DNA of 64,000 nucleotides from Methylocapsa palsarum (GTDB lineage Bacteria; Pseudomonadota; Alphaproteobacteria; Rhizobiales; Beijerinckiaceae): assembly GCF_900114285.1 (NCBI RefSeq), contig NZ_FOSN01000002.1, forward strand, positions 186,001-250,000, read 5' to 3'. Both the position numbers and the translations under genes were made by a program. Shown here piece by piece: positions 32,838-39,143 of the stretch. The notes beneath the pieces were generated by a model that was not told the origin of the DNA, did not search any database, and saw only the letters and a list, made by a program, of their open reading frames with translations. Position 1 is the stretch's first letter; every line of letters starts with the position of its first letter.

Positions 32838-34412
32838 TTAAAAGAGCGTCTCCTGATCCTTCTGCGTCTTGGGTTTGCGGCTCGGCTTGGCCAAGGGGGC
32901 CTTTCCAGCGCCGCCGGCGACCGCTTCCTTGCGGCCGTCGTGGAACTCGATCTCGATCCGGGCGCCGTCGGCGATTTCGGACGCCAGCCGCAAAGGTCTC
33001 TGCTCCGCGTCCCGCACCAGGGCGAATCCGCGCGCCAGAACCTGCCGATAGCCGAGACTGCTCAGCAATTGTCCGAGGCTTGCGACCTTCGCCCGCTGAA
33101 CCGCGATCCGCGCGGCGGCGGCCTGATCCATGCGACCTGACAGGGCGCCGAGACGCAGGCGCGCCGCCTCCGCTCGTTCTCGATGCATGCGATTTTGGGC
33201 GGAACGGGCGATGCTTAGGCGGGACTGCGTCCGATGAAGCAAATCCGACGCGCGCTGCAGGTTCAGTCCGGCGGCGCGAGCGAGCCTCGCCTTCATCGCC
33301 CCCAATTGCTCCTCCGCCCGTCCCATCCTGGCGTGAGGCGATTGCTGCGCCAGCCTGTGCGACAGGTTCGCCAGGGCGATGCGACGCCGGTCCTGCGAGC
33401 GGGACAGCGCGTTCGAAAAACGGCTGGCCGCATGATCGACCCGCTGACGGGGCAGGGCGAGCAGCGCTTCTGCATGCGGCAGGGCGCGCAGCAAGCCGCG
33501 CAGATCGTTCCGGCACCGCTCCAGCAGCCGGAAGGCGGCGCTGGAATGGCGCCGGCCAAGATCGCTGACGGCGGCCGCGAGTTCGGAGCGGACCGGAACC
33601 GCTTTTTCGGCCGCCGCGGTCGGGGTCGGCGCGCGAAGGTCGGCGGCGAGATCGAGTAGGGTCCAATCGGTTTCATGCCCGATCGCCGAGATGATCGCGA
33701 GATGGCTTCGGGCCGCCGCCCGGACCACGATTTCCTCGTTGAAGCTCCACAGGTCTTCGAGCGAGCCGCCGCCGCGCGCGACGATGAGAACGTCCGGGCG
33801 GCGCAAGGGGCCGTCCTCGGGCAAGGCGTTGAATCCGTCGATCGCGGCGGCGACTTCCTCGGCCGAGGCGTCGCCCTGGACCCGCACCGGCCAGACAAGG
33901 ACGCGAAGAGGAAATCGCTCCGCGATGCGATGCAGGATGTCGCGAATGACGGCCCCTGTCGGCGAGGTCACAACGCCGATGCTGCGGGGCAGAAAGGGAA
34001 CCAGCTGCTTGCGCGCCTCGTCGAACAGGCCTTCGGCGGCGAGCTTGCGCCGGCGCTCCTCGAACAGCGCCATCAGCGCGCCGATTCCGGCGGGTTCGAT
34101 CGAATCGATCACGATCTGATAGTTCGACTTGCCCGGAAAGGTCGTGATCTTTCCGGTCGCGACGACCTCCAGCCCTTCCTGGGGCTTGGTCTTCAGGCGC
34201 GTAAAAACGCCTTTCCAGATCACCGCGTCGATCCGCGCGGCCTGATCCTTCAGGCAGAAATAGGCGTGGCCCGACGAATGCGGGCCACGATAGTTCGAAA
34301 TTTCGCCCCTGACGCGCACGAGACCGAAACGGTCCTCGATCGTTCGCTTCAGCGCGAGCGATAATTCGCTGACGCTCAGTTCTGGCGCGTTGGTCGCGGC
34401 GATTTCAGCCAT
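32838..34412 (-). CDS. xseA: Exodeoxyribonuclease VII large subunit
   Basis: 524 residues. The OB-fold N-terminal domain contains VRVRGEISNYRGPHSSGHAY. The catalytic domain has VVTSPTGAVIRDIL, ARGGGSLEDLWSFNEE and GHETDWTLLDLAADLRAPTP. A long coiled-coil (about residues 270-420), rich in Arg and Ala, is the binding scaffold for small XseB subunits. With XseB it degrades single-stranded DNA bidirectionally; xseB is not in the window. The C-terminal tail is Lys/Pro-rich. It starts 25 bp from the multicopper oxidase stop but reads in the same direction. Confidence 0.95.
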   Translation of the reverse strand: MAEIAATNAPELSVSELSLALKRTIEDRFGLVRVRGEISNYRGPHSSGHAYFCLKDQAARIDAVIWKGVFTRLKTKPQEGLEVVATGKITTFPGKSNYQIVIDSIEPAGIGALMALFEERRRKLAAEGLFDEARKQLVPFLPRSIGVVTSPTGAVIRDILHRIAERFPLRVLVWPVRVQGDASAEEVAAAIDGFNALPEDGPLRRPDVLIVARGGGSLEDLWSFNEEIVVRAAARSHLAIISAIGHETDWTLLDLAADLRAPTPTAAAEKAVPVRSELAAAVSDLGRRHSSAAFRLLERCRNDLRGLLRALPHAEALLALPRQRVDHAASRFSNALSRSQDRRRIALANLSHRLAQQSPHARMGRAEEQLGAMKARLARAAGLNLQRASDLLHRTQSRLSIARSAQNRMHRERAEAARLRLGALSGRMDQAAAARIAVQRAKVASLGQLLSSLGYRQVLARGFALVRDAEQRPLRLASEIADGARIEIEFHDGRKEAVAGGAGKAPLAKPSRKPKTQKDQETLF

Positions 34413-34437: not shown

Positions 34438-36531
34438 TCACTGTGAAGCGAGCGGGCGCGTTCCGCGCATCTGCGGAGGATCGTTCGACGGGCGGACCCT
34501 GATCCGGGCCATCATGCCACCGTCCTCATGTTCGAGGATGTGGCAATGGTAAACAAAGTCTCCGGCAATCGCGAAGGGGATGTCGACCGTGACCGGGTGC
34601 GCGGTGCAGGCGCCGTTGCGCCAGTCCGCGACGCTGTTGCAGACACCGTCGGCGTGCTGCAACGGAATATTATCGTGTAAAATGCCGCTGCCTCGGTCGC
34701 TGCCGGGCAGAATCGCTCCCGAGATTTCGTCGTGCGTCAGGAGCCGAAACTTGACCTGATGAATATGAAAATTGTGGTCCTCTCCGGCGAGATTCACAAG
34801 TTCCCATTTCTCGTGGACAGGCGTGTTTCGAGGCCCGAGCGGGAGGCAGATGGTCGGACGGCTCGGGTCGAATTCCTTGACGTCCATGAAGGTCCCCGGA
34901 ACGGGAGCGCCGTGCGCATCGAGCTCTTCATACCCGAGGCCGAAGGCGTCCGGGTCGCTTGTCGGAGCGTTGAAAAAGACGCGCCGGCTGTGGCCTTGCG
35001 GGAGCGCATGGCAGGACGGATCCACGCCGACGGCCGTGTTGGCGGCGAGGAGGCTGGCGTTCACGTCCGTCGGCTCGCGATAGGTGAGCGCGTCCGGAGC
35101 GATTGTTAAGGCCTGAGGGGCGGGGGTTTCGGCGCCCGAACCCTTGAATTGGACGTTCGCGAGATCGATCGCCGGCCACGAGTCGCCATCAGGGCCGGTT
35201 TCGAAGCCAGCCGTTCTGAGGATGGCGGTCTCCTCACCGCTCGGCTGGGCCGGCCGGTCATCCGCGTCGCGATACGTGACCCACAATTCGACCCGCGAAC
35301 TCGGCATCATCAACAGCCGGCGGACACACAGGGGCGCGCCGTCCGTCGCGGCGGAGGTGATCCCCGGGCAAGCGACAGGTTTAACCTTGGCTCCGCCGAT
35401 TTGGCGAAGGTCGCCGAGGGATATGCCCTGACCAGGTTGAACGGCGACGCCATCGACCGACAGGACCTGCACCACCATGTTGCGCTGCTGCTTCGGATTC
35501 CAGAGCCCGAGATCATACGAGACGCTGCCCGAGGCGGTGGTGATGCGCCAGATCTCGCCGCCTGGCGATTTAACCGGAATGGAAGGATAGGGCTGTCCGT
35601 TGAGCGTGAAGTACCATCGTCCGCCGGTATAGTCGCCGCCGTCTTCGTCGGACGATTTTACGCCCGGGCAGGAGCCCTTCCTCGGAGGTTCGCCCGAAGC
35701 CTGGGCTGGATCGCAGAACGAGGGCTCCTCCTCGTCGAGCAAGACGCCGTCCTTGAGAATCTGGGCGTCCTTCAGAATGATATGCCGGACCGGCAGAGAT
35801 TTGAAAAAACTCGCGCAAGAGGCGTTCTTGCAAACGTAATCTTCGAGCGCGCCGACGGTGATGATCCCCGAAAGGCCCGCGGACACCTGATTGAGCGCGA
35901 TGCCGTGGATATGGGGATGAAACCAGAACAGGCCCGACGGATGCCCAGCGGGGATCTTGATGCTGTAATCTGTGTAGCCGTATCGGACATCGCTGTGCGC
36001 ATGGGAATCCGCCGGCATCGGTCCATTTTTGGGGTTCAGCGTCATGACGAACACGTTGTCGCCATAGGCGCCGTCGGCGCCTGGCCCATGTGGCGACACC
36101 AGCATTCCATGGGTGTGAATGTTGATCGGATCGAGAGCCAGGAAGGCGTGACCCGGCTCCGTGGCGTGTCCAGAATCCTTGATCGGCGGCAGGGCGTTGA
36201 CGAGTCGGACTTTCAACAGATCGCCTTGCCGCAACTGGAGACGAACTCCCGCATAAGGATTCTTGTTCTTGTCGCTCGCCGGACATGTGGCGGCGAAACG
36301 GGCGGGACGTTCGCAGATGTCGAACACCCATCCGGTGGCGCTGTAATCCGGAAACGTCGAAATCGGCGCGGCTCGCGCCACCATCAAAAGATTGAGCGCG
36401 CCGTTCTTGCTGGCCAGAACGGGCGGCTCGGCAAGATCTCCAGCGAGAGCCGCTGGCGCCGACCCGCTGAAGGCGAGCGAAAGGAAAGCGCCCGCCGCAA
36501 TCAAGCGGCGCGCCGATGAGGTGCGTATCAT
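34438..36531 (-). CDS. Multicopper oxidase of the iron-uptake locus
   Basis: 697 residues with a Sec signal peptide (cleaved after about residue 30). All four copper-ligand motifs are present: NIHTHG, FWFHPHIHG, DHNFHIHQ and the last HCHILEHEDGGMM, giving type 1 and trinuclear sites. It is large, with an insertion of about 150 residues between the second and third domains. Next to an FTR1 permease and a cupredoxin, the likely role is periplasmic ferroxidase (Fet3-like), coupling ferrous iron oxidation to import. Phenol or copper oxidation is an alternative. Last gene of the locus. Confidence 0.85.
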   Translation of the reverse strand: MIRTSSARRLIAAGAFLSLAFSGSAPAALAGDLAEPPVLASKNGALNLLMVARAAPISTFPDYSATGWVFDICERPARFAATCPASDKNKNPYAGVRLQLRQGDLLKVRLVNALPPIKDSGHATEPGHAFLALDPINIHTHGMLVSPHGPGADGAYGDNVFVMTLNPKNGPMPADSHAHSDVRYGYTDYSIKIPAGHPSGLFWFHPHIHGIALNQVSAGLSGIITVGALEDYVCKNASCASFFKSLPVRHIILKDAQILKDGVLLDEEEPSFCDPAQASGEPPRKGSCPGVKSSDEDGGDYTGGRWYFTLNGQPYPSIPVKSPGGEIWRITTASGSVSYDLGLWNPKQQRNMVVQVLSVDGVAVQPGQGISLGDLRQIGGAKVKPVACPGITSAATDGAPLCVRRLLMMPSSRVELWVTYRDADDRPAQPSGEETAILRTAGFETGPDGDSWPAIDLANVQFKGSGAETPAPQALTIAPDALTYREPTDVNASLLAANTAVGVDPSCHALPQGHSRRVFFNAPTSDPDAFGLGYEELDAHGAPVPGTFMDVKEFDPSRPTICLPLGPRNTPVHEKWELVNLAGEDHNFHIHQVKFRLLTHDEISGAILPGSDRGSGILHDNIPLQHADGVCNSVADWRNGACTAHPVTVDIPFAIAGDFVYHCHILEHEDGGMMARIRVRPSNDPPQMRGTRPLASQ

Positions 36532-36675: not shown

Positions 36676-37533
36676 TTATTCGCCCATGACATGCTTGTGA
36701 GACGGTTCCGGAACCGTTCGGAGAGCCGGCCGAGGGCGTGAAGCGAGGCGCCCTAATCCGAAGATTGTAGAAAGCGTGGCGATATAGGCCAAACCCTGCA
36801 GGACGGTTGGCTGGTCGCTGTAGCCGACCAGCGTATGCAACACGCGTCCCGCGATGCTTTTCTCGGAAAGGACGTTCGAGGTGTTCCACAAGGTCGCGCC
36901 GAGAACCCTTACGACGTCGGCCTGTTCGAGATAATAGACGCATTGCGCCGCCATACCCGCCGCCAGGAAGGCGATCAGCGCGCCGGTGACCCCGAACAGG
37001 TAGCGGCCCGGAATTTTGACGAGGCCGCGATAGGTCAGGTAACTGAGGCCGGCGCCTAGGACGAGGCCGGCGAGGCCGCCGCTGAGAAGGCTCCAGGCCG
37101 AGCCGGAATCGGACAGGGCGAGGCCGTAGAGAAAGAGCACGATCTCGGATCCTTCGCGAAGCACCGCGACGCCGACGACGACGGCCAATGCGCTTGCCGA
37201 ACGGGCGCCGGTCGAAACCGCCTGTCCGACCGATTTGAGCTCGGCGGCCATTTCGCGGCCGTGCCGCGCCATCCAGATGTTGTGCCAGGCGAGCATGACC
37301 ACGGCGACGGCGAGGACCGCGGCGTTGAAAAGCTCCTGTCCCGTCCCGCTCATCGCATCTGAAATCGCGCCCGCGAAGACCGCGAGGAGGGCCGCGCCCG
37401 CGACCCCCGCCGCGACGCCGGCGAGAATCCATGGAGTGCGGCCTTGAAGGCCTTGCGTCGCGGCGAGGACGATGCCGACGATCAGTCCGGCTTCGATGAC
37501 CTCGCGGAAAACGATGATGAGAGCGCCGATCAT
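36676..37533 (-). CDS. FTR1-family iron permease
   Basis: 285 residues with seven predicted transmembrane helices. The two iron-binding REXXE motifs are intact: FREVIEAGL at residues 9-17 and LREGSEIVLF near residue 124. This is the FTR1/EfeU high-affinity permease, which takes up iron passed on from a periplasmic oxidase. The upstream cupredoxin and downstream multicopper oxidase make an FTR1-cupredoxin-oxidase system. It starts 47 bp after the cupredoxin stop, consistent with one transcript. Confidence 0.93.
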   Translation of the reverse strand: MIGALIIVFREVIEAGLIVGIVLAATQGLQGRTPWILAGVAAGVAGAALLAVFAGAISDAMSGTGQELFNAAVLAVAVVMLAWHNIWMARHGREMAAELKSVGQAVSTGARSASALAVVVGVAVLREGSEIVLFLYGLALSDSGSAWSLLSGGLAGLVLGAGLSYLTYRGLVKIPGRYLFGVTGALIAFLAAGMAAQCVYYLEQADVVRVLGATLWNTSNVLSEKSIAGRVLHTLVGYSDQPTVLQGLAYIATLSTIFGLGRLASRPRPALRTVPEPSHKHVMGE

Positions 37534-37580
37534 GTTACTGTTTCATCCTGCGATTTGTTGACGCCCCCGCGCCGTCAGAT

Positions 37581-37934
37581 CTATTCCACCGTGATCGCGC
37601 CGTCCGCGGTCGCCTCGTTGAAGTCGCCATAGAAGCGGTACCGTCCCGGAGTCAGCGGCCGGAATCTGAGCGTGATCTCGGAATTTCCCGCGACTACTTT
37701 CTCGACGCGAAGCGTCTTGCTTTCGAACTCTTCCGGCGTCGGATCGAGATTGCGGACCACGATCACGATCGGCGTATTTGCCGGCGCTTTCAATTCCGAG
37801 GGCTGGAACCGATGGTTCTTGATCGTCGTGTGCAAGGTGACTTCCTGCGCAAGAGAGGGCGTCGCCGTCATCAACGTGAAGACCGCGCACATCGACGCGA
37901 ACTTGAGCAGAGCGCCTGCCGGCATATTTTTCAT
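37581..37934 (-). CDS. Periplasmic cupredoxin-domain protein (EfeO/P19-associated type)
   Basis: 117 residues: signal peptide (about 1-29, ending SLAQ) and a single cupredoxin fold containing TIKNHRFQPSELKAPANTP, the acidic PTPEEFESKTL and the C-terminal GRYRFYGDFNEATADG. The last motif matches the cupredoxin domains of EfeO-type iron proteins rather than electron-transfer plastocyanins, and the usual Cys ligand of blue copper sites is absent. It probably binds iron or copper in the periplasm and hands it to the FTR1 permease. Ribosome site AAGGAAAGG lies just before the ATG. Confidence 0.85.
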   Translation of the reverse strand: MKNMPAGALLKFASMCAVFTLMTATPSLAQEVTLHTTIKNHRFQPSELKAPANTPIVIVVRNLDPTPEEFESKTLRVEKVVAGNSEITLRFRPLTPGRYRFYGDFNEATADGAITVE

Positions 37935-37986
37935 TGGACCTTTCCTTGACCGCTAACCGGAAAATCAGAGACCGCTAACCAGAAAA

Positions 37987-39003
37987 TCAGAATTCGTATT
38001 CGATCAGCAAGCGCGCCTTGTTGCGAGAGAAATTCGTAAGATCGAGGGGATTGTTGATCCCTGCCGCGTGGCCGGTGATTTGAGTCGAGAACGCGGCGGC
38101 GAGCAGGAGTTTGGGAGTGAGCTTTGCGAACAGGGTTGGGCCCGCATAGACGGCGTCGCCGGCGAAACCCTGGAACCCGAGGCTGTCGTAAGCGCGGTAA
38201 TATTCCAGTTCGCCGCCGAGCGTCACATGCTCCGAAAGCCGATAGGTGACGGCTGTCGTGGCGCCGAGGGTCGCGCCTCTCTCCCATTTCGGGTCGCCAA
38301 AGTCCCTGCCGACTTCCGGCGAATAAATCGCATTGAACGCTGCATAGAGGCGGTCGGGGACGAGTTCGGTGTCGGCGACGATCTTGCCTGTCACGCCGAA
38401 AGCCGTACTGACGCGGCCGTTGTCGTTGACGCGGCCCCATTCCGGCTCGGCGGAGAAGGTGAGGCCGATCGGGGCGCCGGGGCCGCGCGCGATTGCGTTA
38501 TAGCTGACTTTTGTCGACAAGCCGCCGAAATTGGCGCCGTGGAAGTTATCGAAGCCGTCGACGTTATGAATTTGAGAAAAGACTCCATGCACGGAGGCTT
38601 CGATTTCGAGGGCGTCGATGGGATTCCATTCGAGCTCCACCTCCTGCTCAAGCGCATTGAACACGCCCTGGCGCTTTTGAAATTCGAGGTTGGTCTCTGA
38701 TTCGATCGCCAGCTCGCCAACAATGCCGATGTCAGACCCCGTCGTGAACCCGAAAATATATTTGGTTTCGAGTTCTCTGAATTTGGCGGGCGCGCCAGCC
38801 TGGGCCGCCGCGAAATCCTGCAGCGGCAGCAGAGCTGGCAAGGCGGCGTCCTGAGACGCAGCGATGATTTGAGGCGCAGCAGGCGCGGCCCCGTCCTGAG
38901 CAGAGGCGATCGACCGGGTCAAAAGCAGAGCCGGGACGGCGGCGAGGATCGATGCGGATGTCATTACGCGCGATGCGCGGGAGGGCTGGTGATCTTTTGT
39001 CAT
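37987..39003 (-). CDS. Outer-membrane beta-barrel protein heading the iron-uptake operon
   Basis: 338 residues from the ATG at 39003, with a signal peptide (cleaved near SIASAQ) and a low-complexity Ala/Pro/Gln linker. From about residue 75 on, alternating hydrophobic strands (KYIFGFTTGSDIG, AIESETNLEF, LGGELEYYRAYDS) end in the terminal aromatic Phe (LLIEYEF), the signature of Omp85-assembled barrels. No TonB box is seen. It may let iron or its complexes reach the periplasm. I cannot name a characterised family. First gene behind two iron control elements. Confidence 0.8.
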   Translation of the reverse strand: MTKDHQPSRASRVMTSASILAAVPALLLTRSIASAQDGAAPAAPQIIAASQDAALPALLPLQDFAAAQAGAPAKFRELETKYIFGFTTGSDIGIVGELAIESETNLEFQKRQGVFNALEQEVELEWNPIDALEIEASVHGVFSQIHNVDGFDNFHGANFGGLSTKVSYNAIARGPGAPIGLTFSAEPEWGRVNDNGRVSTAFGVTGKIVADTELVPDRLYAAFNAIYSPEVGRDFGDPKWERGATLGATTAVTYRLSEHVTLGGELEYYRAYDSLGFQGFAGDAVYAGPTLFAKLTPKLLLAAAFSTQITGHAAGINNPLDLTNFSRNKARLLIEYEF

Positions 39004-39099
39004 GCCGGTTCCGATCCGAAAAATCTTGTCGCCGATTGGAATTATTCTATCGGCACAGCTTAAACGGGAAACGCAGCAAATCAAGAAATATGTTCTTTA

Positions 39100-39116
39100 T
39101 TTAGACTAATTCTAAC
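39100..39116. promoter_or_regulatory. Iron control element (Irr-type box), site 1
   Basis: TTTAGACTAATTCTAAC agrees at 15 of 17 positions with the rhizobial ICE consensus TTTRGAAYNRTTCYAAA. It lies 97 bases before the ATG of the outer-membrane gene of the iron locus. Irr binds such sites in Bradyrhizobium and relatives. Depending on the position relative to the promoter it represses or activates. Confidence 0.75.
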
Positions 39117-39126
39117 CTAGATTTAC

Positions 39127-39143
39127 TTTAGAACGATTCGAAA
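39127..39143. promoter_or_regulatory. Iron control element (Irr-type box), site 2
   Basis: TTTAGAACGATTCGAAA agrees at 16 of 17 positions with the ICE consensus. It is centred 27 bp from site 1, somewhat under three helical turns. Paired near-consensus sites right upstream of an FTR1/multicopper oxidase locus make iron-responsive control by Irr likely. Confidence 0.82.

Follow-up and report, generated by a model that had tools for sequence, protein, structure and literature searches.

A candidate Irr-activated iron-uptake operon in Methylocapsa palsarum joining an outer-membrane protein, a cupredoxin, an FTR1 permease and a multicopper oxidase

The Fet3-Ftr1 system of yeast consists of an FTR1 permease and a multicopper oxidase. 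In Brucella, Irr is reported to bind at ftrA of the FTR1-type FtrABCD system, with studies in conflict over the direction of its effect (PMC10374146). Irr is described as a repressor or an activator depending on site position and, for Bradyrhizobium, as the sole global iron regulator (PMC7762939); a transcription start within the Irr box is reported to go with repression (PMC3413700). Here we analyse a stretch of 64,000 nucleotides (nt) of the M. palsarum genome (contig NZ_FOSN01000002.1, positions 186,001 to 250,000; hereafter the window, in whose own numbering positions are given), in which genes for an outer-membrane beta-barrel-like protein (OMP), an FtrB-like cupredoxin, an FTR1 permease and a multicopper oxidase lie in a row behind two predicted iron control elements (ICEs) for Irr. 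We consider it likely that these genes form one Irr-activated four-gene operon for ferrous-iron uptake. The case is comparative, built on conserved sites, fixed spacing, a conserved gene unit and the presence of Irr, with binding, iron response, transport and ferroxidase activity all putative. The features are as follows.

39127-39143, strand not applicable: ICE site 1, TTTAGAACGATTCGAAA, matching 13 of 14 specified consensus positions
39100-39116, strand not applicable: ICE site 2, TTTAGACTAATTCTAAC, matching 12 of 14 specified positions; the site closer to the promoter
39079-39084, minus strand: -35-like hexamer TTGATT, separated by a gap of 15 nt from ICE site 2, which it follows, with a spacer of 16 to the -10-like hexamer
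39057-39062, minus strand: -10-like hexamer TAAGCT, 16 nt beyond TTGATT
37987-39003, minus strand: OMP, 338 amino acids from ATG, weak Phenol_MetA_deg match
37581-37934, minus strand: FtrB-like (EfeO-type) cupredoxin, 117 amino acids, Cupredoxin_1, 8vuk at E 1.7e-22
36676-37533, minus strand: FTR1-family iron permease, 285 amino acids, REVIE at residue 10 and REGSE at residue 126, PF03239 at E 2.8e-33
34438-36531, minus strand: divergent multicopper oxidase, 697 amino acids, four copper-ligand motifs (HTHG, HPHIHG, HIH and HCHILEH)

An initial annotation of the window had placed the two 17-mers at exactly these coordinates, and the 27 bp that it gave between their centres are likewise exact; its consensus matches of 16 and 15 of 17 positions are reproduced when the three N positions are counted. 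As the rhizobial ICE consensus for scoring we used TTTAGAANNNTTCTAAA. With up to three mismatches, sites 1 and 2 are its only matches in the window (0.38 expected), and at least two such matches occurred in 8 of 100 shuffles of the window. Site 1 scores 24.8 with a position weight matrix (PWM) from whose training it was left out. Past the -10-like hexamer, and still ahead of the start codon, comes a third, weaker palindrome (39035-39051; 10 of 14 positions).

What lifts the match beyond chance is its conservation in relatives. At E ≤ 1e-15, 150 of the 298 genomes of the family contain an FTR1 relative, 113 of them at E ≤ 1e-60; our sample comprised the window and 60 FTR1 loci, about half of the close matches, which were selected manually in rank order with some ranks skipped. 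By tblastn at E ≤ 1e-4, these 61 loci fall into class A (OMP-cupredoxin-FTR1; n = 17, window included), class B (cupredoxin-FTR1; n = 21) and class C (FTR1 with neither; n = 23). Comparing the spacer across related genomes, as the initial annotation had suggested, we found the sites conserved: one matching at least 11 of 14 positions lies within 400 bp upstream in all 17 class A loci (window included) and in 19 of the 23 class C loci, where dinucleotide shuffling leads one to expect 0.25 and 0.15 loci, respectively (about 0.4 for both classes together, and 0.22 for class B). The 40 class A and C loci held 46 sites per 16,000 upstream positions as compared to 9 per 470,682 other positions, and the ICE palindrome was present in 36 of them, the best of 139 permuted same-letter palindromes reaching 12. 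When the PWM was applied with the tested site left out of training and 100 Markov resamples for each locus (pass at p ≤ 0.02), all 17 class A and 20 of the 23 class C loci passed, as did six of eight OMP-cupredoxin loci without FTR1. Among 190 upstream regions of other genes, three reached 14 bits, the top scorer belonging to an mbfA-type gene (Rubrerythrin and VIT1 domains); mbfA is itself listed as a known Irr target (PMC3413700). In a held-out set from other families of the order, unused in training (four own-family loci dropped, near copies kept), 12 of 20 loci passed at the same limit, with a TTG 15 nt after the site in five of the 12 and 9 nt after it in three. At least two sites are present in 9 of the 17 class A loci, the window's pair being 27 bp apart and others often 64-65 bp.

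The arrangement of site and promoter is conserved as well. We used the site nearest the gene, and an identity threshold of 80% brought 45 sites down to 39. The site is followed by a TTG at 14-15 nt in 35 of the 45 loci and in 30 of the 39 non-redundant ones (8 of 14 in class A, 16 of 17 in class C and 6 of 8 among further OMP loci), any other gap having a TTG in a mean of 1.0 and at most 3 of the 39; in three further class A loci the gap is 9 nt. Taken as a whole, the window's promoter is not significant by itself (p 0.139), its site-to-TTG gap being the conserved part. The nearer site would be centred near -59, with the start inferred from spacing. Rubrerythrin genes in the genus, by which we mean the Methylocapsa/Methylocella group of Beijerinckiaceae, are arranged differently: a TTG stands 21 nt before the element in seven of eight genomes, placing the -10 inside it and thus giving a repressor geometry (the name rubrerythrin rests on an NCBIfam match under its cut-off, 132 versus 200). 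None of 13 rubrerythrin or mbfA sites has a TTG 14-15 nt after it, counting those that score at least 14 (6 mbfA, 7 rubrerythrin) among the 17 of 22 loci listed (9 mbfA, 8 rubrerythrin). Combined with the published position rule, the site positions make the uptake genes look activated and the defence genes repressed; an ICE upstream of a -35-like TTG at fixed spacing is an activator geometry, and activation by Irr is likely. A very unlikely alternative casts Irr as a repressor of an operon that high iron would induce for export or detoxification. Many targets are reported as repressed by Irr (PMC3413700, PMC7762939), and ftrA reportedly rose in an irr mutant of B. melitensis M5-90 (PMC10374146), but the fixed place upstream of the TTG in 30 of 39 loci, set beside a rubrerythrin site on the -10, argues otherwise, and FTR1 permeases are described as importers (PMC11966278).

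As for the regulator, three Fur-family proteins were matched in the genome. One (L023) is Irr, carrying GCPFHD and HHH and scoring above the NF045678 and NF045677 cut-offs; a second Irr-type protein (L024) is without GCPFHD, passing the IrrA cut-off (158.8 versus 150) and missing that of Irr (153.1 versus 170); the third (L025) is taken for Zur from its sequence. None of the three Rrf2 proteins in the genome reaches the RirA cut-off. Irr control of the operon, as initially annotated, is thus strongly supported by comparison, through conserved predicted sites, the constant distance from these to a -35-like TTG, an Irr gene above its cut-offs and no RirA above its own. It is improbable, in our estimate, that the binder is L024, perhaps with another signal, rather than the main Irr L023. 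The genome does encode two Irr-type proteins, the second above the IrrA cut-off; nothing direct opposes L024, and both paralogues may bind the same palindrome.

In the mechanism that we propose, the four genes would be co-transcribed as one operon that Irr turns on under a shortage of iron or heme: bound to both ICE sites, immediately ahead of a promoter of the sigma-70 type, apo-Irr would recruit RNA polymerase, and with ample iron, heme would inactivate or destabilise Irr and the operon would fall silent. The OMP would pass metal across the outer membrane, and the FtrB-like cupredoxin, to judge from its kept ligands, would bind periplasmic iron. By analogy with Fet3-Ftr1 and with FtrABCD, an oxidase would convert Fe2+ to Fe3+ and FTR1 would carry it inward; the oxidation step might fall to the adjacent multicopper oxidase or to unlinked FtrA/FtrB. 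A broader proposal, to which we give a little less than an even chance, is that in these bacteria one palindrome conveys opposite Irr commands by place (14-15 nt before the -35, switching on a dispersed ferrous-uptake set made up of OMP-cupredoxin, FTR1 and oxidase; on the -10, switching off an iron defence gene, rubrerythrin) and that the window holds a fused Fet3-Ftr1-like operon with its own outer-membrane entry.

Several results weigh against the Irr-activated four-gene operon. A canonical site (at least 11 of 14 positions) is present in only 2 of 21 class B loci; just three of nine OMP-only loci pass the PWM test, one further OMP-cupredoxin-FTR1 locus fails it (p 0.04, limit 0.02), and so do 8 of the 20 held-out loci from other families. 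The 14-15 nt spacing is missing in 9 of 39 loci, and single promoters among the loci are mostly not significant, with weak -10 boxes. Among the proteins, the OMP, a putative barrel, has no solved relative by sequence (best E 0.25); in the window cupredoxin, Gly and Asn replace the copper-related FtrB residues D118 and H121; and the oxidase stands directly behind FTR1 in the window only, among 61 loci. Finally, the whole genome (4.1 Mb) holds nine places within two mismatches of the consensus, and as many for a reversed control pattern. Because the control is equally common, an own-genome match alone carries little weight, and single-genome pattern matching was rejected as the sole evidence for the sites. 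Such equal counts are also what favours the view that two AT-rich palindromes arose by chance in a spacer that is itself rich in AT, a view which the conservation, permuted-palindrome, background-gene and spacing controls together render extremely improbable. Outside the window, three of the seven own-genome places precede iron-related genes, namely a suf operon (L132; SufB above cut-off), the operon of a TonB-dependent siderophore receptor (L134; closest to ferrioxamine receptors, under that cut-off) and a rubrerythrin gene (L138; best match, but under its cut-off); no iron gene was recognised beside the other four.

In class B, a different palindrome, approximately TTGGA-N5-TCCAGA, occurs in 11 of 21 loci and is followed by a TTG at exactly 9 nt. 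Eleven class B loci pass the leave-one-out PWM test at p ≤ 0.02, mostly via this variant, which is either a drifted Irr box or the box of another regulator. The loci that carry it are:

L098, L103, L107, L108, L114, L115, L120, L125, L126, L128 and L131: class B loci with the TTGGA-N5-TCCAGA palindrome

The gene content given by the initial annotation (barrel-like protein, cupredoxin, FTR1 with both REXXE motifs, multicopper oxidase) was found, with intergenic gaps of 52, 47 and 144 nt in that order. For the OMP, the longest open reading frame begins at a TTG at 39084, upstream of the ATG at 39003; the C-terminal Phe is invariant across 27 aligned sequences, 17 of which match Phenol_MetA_deg at E ≤ 0.1 (weak Pfam barrel matches). 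The cupredoxin keeps its EfeO-type label, and the best solved match of its family profile is Brucella FtrB (8vuk), itself labelled EfeO-type. In FtrB, an iron mimic is reported to be bound by E84, E86, E93 and D119, with D118 needed for copper binding (PMC11966278). Residues E69, E71 and E78 of the window protein align with the three glutamates, and the D119 equivalent is also kept. Asp and His stand at the D118 and H121 places in 17 of 23 aligned cupredoxins; the Gly and Asn of the window recur in Methylocapsa aurea and L165. The sole Cys is residue 16, within the likely signal region. An RNA structure in the FTR1-oxidase gap was rejected, no signal being found there (z 0.22). Downstream of the oxidase by 25 nt, and on the same minus strand, lies xseA (32838-34412), which may be read together with the iron operon.

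That the OMP belongs to the unit, as the initial annotation had it, is supported by both the OMP-cupredoxin-FTR1 order in 17 of 61 loci and the co-occurrence of OMP and FTR1 across genomes (23 of 29 versus 90 of 269, p 2e-6). The region preceding xseA, itself preceded by Kef-type genes, differs between members of the genus: three genomes (G103, G076 and G040) have the OMP alone and no site, M. aurea has OMP-cupredoxin with a site and xseA directly after the cupredoxin, and the window has all four genes. In M. aurea, FTR1 is solitary elsewhere (L089) and likewise behind a site, its assignment to the same genome being inferred. Because relatives keep oxidase, OMP-cupredoxin and FTR1 apart, many behind sites, the window gives the impression that components of a single regulon have been fused. 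In a tree of 61 FTR1 proteins, the OMP-linked class needs nine label changes (bootstrap range 8-9), and the window forms a long branch beside a solitary-FTR1 clade (99/85), too unsure to claim an origin for its FTR1. Distant OMP relatives (31-36%) occur in Tardiphaga, Bradyrhizobium and kin (L172-L174, L177 and L178); near that of L174 lie a PQQ alcohol dehydrogenase gene and a MoxJ-type gene, and the remaining loci appear to share a similar gene order.

Elsewhere in the genome, on contig C53 (L280, 3759-6149), P19 (ftrA), cupredoxin (ftrB) and Fer4_5 protein (ftrD) genes stand in a row with no permease among them. This P19 gene is the only one in the genome, and its ftrB neighbour keeps the DD.H residues that the window cupredoxin is without. 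A single FTR1 match was obtained in the genome at E ≤ 1e-15, a threshold that a very diverged second permease could escape; given the permease-less row, the window FTR1 may therefore also act as its FtrC. Upstream of ftrA, the PWM reaches 18.95 bits (a raw score without shuffle control, in a very AT-rich stretch), with TTG at 19 and 25 nt. At E ≤ 1e-5, none of the 60 FTR1 loci fetched gave an FtrA or FtrD match. Six genomes have weak FTR1 matches (33-35%), considered as candidate FtrC proteins of ftrABCD; no FtrA or FtrD match was found near them.

The locus had been read initially as a Fet3-Ftr1-like pair. Co-encoded FTR1 and oxidase genes agree with this, and the copper motifs of the oxidase are complete, its ferroxidase role with FTR1 being putative; the reading is weakened by a pairing seen in one of 61 loci and by the ftrA-ftrB-ftrD row, which could feed the permease. 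At E ≤ 1e-20, 15 of the 298 genomes of the family have an oxidase relative; in 11 of them it reaches E ≤ 1e-100, and 10 of these 11 have a close FTR1 (p 4e-4; all co-occurrences across genomes were counted manually in match tables). Within the fetched loci of the strong relatives (L026-L037), no FTR1, cupredoxin or OMP match was found. Scanning 12 of 16 fetched oxidase loci (the most distant, L038-L041, left out; gene starts approximate in L032-L037), we found that six of these 12 relatives, all at other loci, are preceded by a site that scores 14 bits or more, versus 3 of 190 background genes (p 8e-7); the closest relative with a site has a TTG at 15 nt. These figures bear on a rival account with a real, though clearly less than even, chance of being right: that the oxidase is a passenger by chance, acting on copper or phenols, and that the unit is OMP, cupredoxin and FTR1, with FTR1 doubling as FtrC and FtrA/FtrB oxidising. 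The solitary pairing, the 144-nt gap ahead of the oxidase gene, the single P19 gene, whose row continues with cupredoxin and Fer4_5 genes but includes no permease, and the one FTR1 match all fit a passenger; the ICE-like sites at oxidase relatives, the close FTR1 in all but one of the strong-oxidase genomes and a relative beside irrA do not. On balance, whether the adjacent multicopper oxidase is the oxidase of the uptake system is close to an even call.

Three oxidase genes of other loci are recorded here in their own right. At L029 (7562-10575), a relative of the window's oxidase and an irrA gene are arranged tail to tail. At L093 (2991-4643 of the turned locus), a different, CueO-like oxidase gene stands head to head with OMP-cupredoxin-FTR1 across a site-bearing spacer, four ICE-like sites lying upstream of the OMP. 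At L094, a 195-amino-acid piece of an oxidase-like open reading frame lies 3.4 kb from FTR1 on the opposite strand.

The distance from site to -35 may serve as a sequence rule predicting Irr activation versus repression, and the OMP is a candidate ferrous-iron entry part in Beijerinckiaceae. The window also offers a candidate bacterial permease-oxidase pair. One account presents yeast Ftr1p, with its multicopper oxidase partner, as the only functionally characterised member of the permease family (PMC11966278), so a bacterial oxidase that is encoded alongside such a permease, and apparently regulated with it, would be a direct test case. The initial annotation had called the system not described. 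With Irr binding at Brucella ftrA already in print (PMC10374146), this can hold only for the gene combination, of which titles and abstract openings in the open-licence literature searched gave no description. What appears new is the single row joining OMP, cupredoxin, permease and oxidase, parts that relatives often keep separate behind the same kind of site. The comparative study of alphaproteobacterial iron regulons by Rodionov in 2006 may predict some of these sites.

Set beside the described systems, the window operon shares with FtrABCD of Brucella and Bordetella an FTR1 permease (placed by its PF03239 family match) and an FtrB-type cupredoxin, but it is without FtrA (P19) and FtrD and has an OMP and a multicopper oxidase instead. 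With yeast Fet3-Ftr1 it has in common an FTR1 permease and a multicopper oxidase encoded together, in the window alone among the 61 loci, whereas its oxidase is divergent and bacterial, with a putative ferroxidase role. EfeUOB is similar in its FTR1-family permease and EfeO-type cupredoxin; the window FTR1 falls under the EfeU cut-off (150.1 versus 255 bits), and the M75 domain of EfeO (PF09375) found no match in the genome. An Irr with no RirA above cut-off, as in the window's genome, resembles the situation in Bradyrhizobium, for which Irr is described as the sole global iron regulator. The rhizobial Irr/ICE regulons share the palindrome, the presence of Irr and, in the genus, sites before mbfA and rubrerythrin as well; the uptake genes here differ in that their site precedes a -35-like TTG at a constant, activator-like position.

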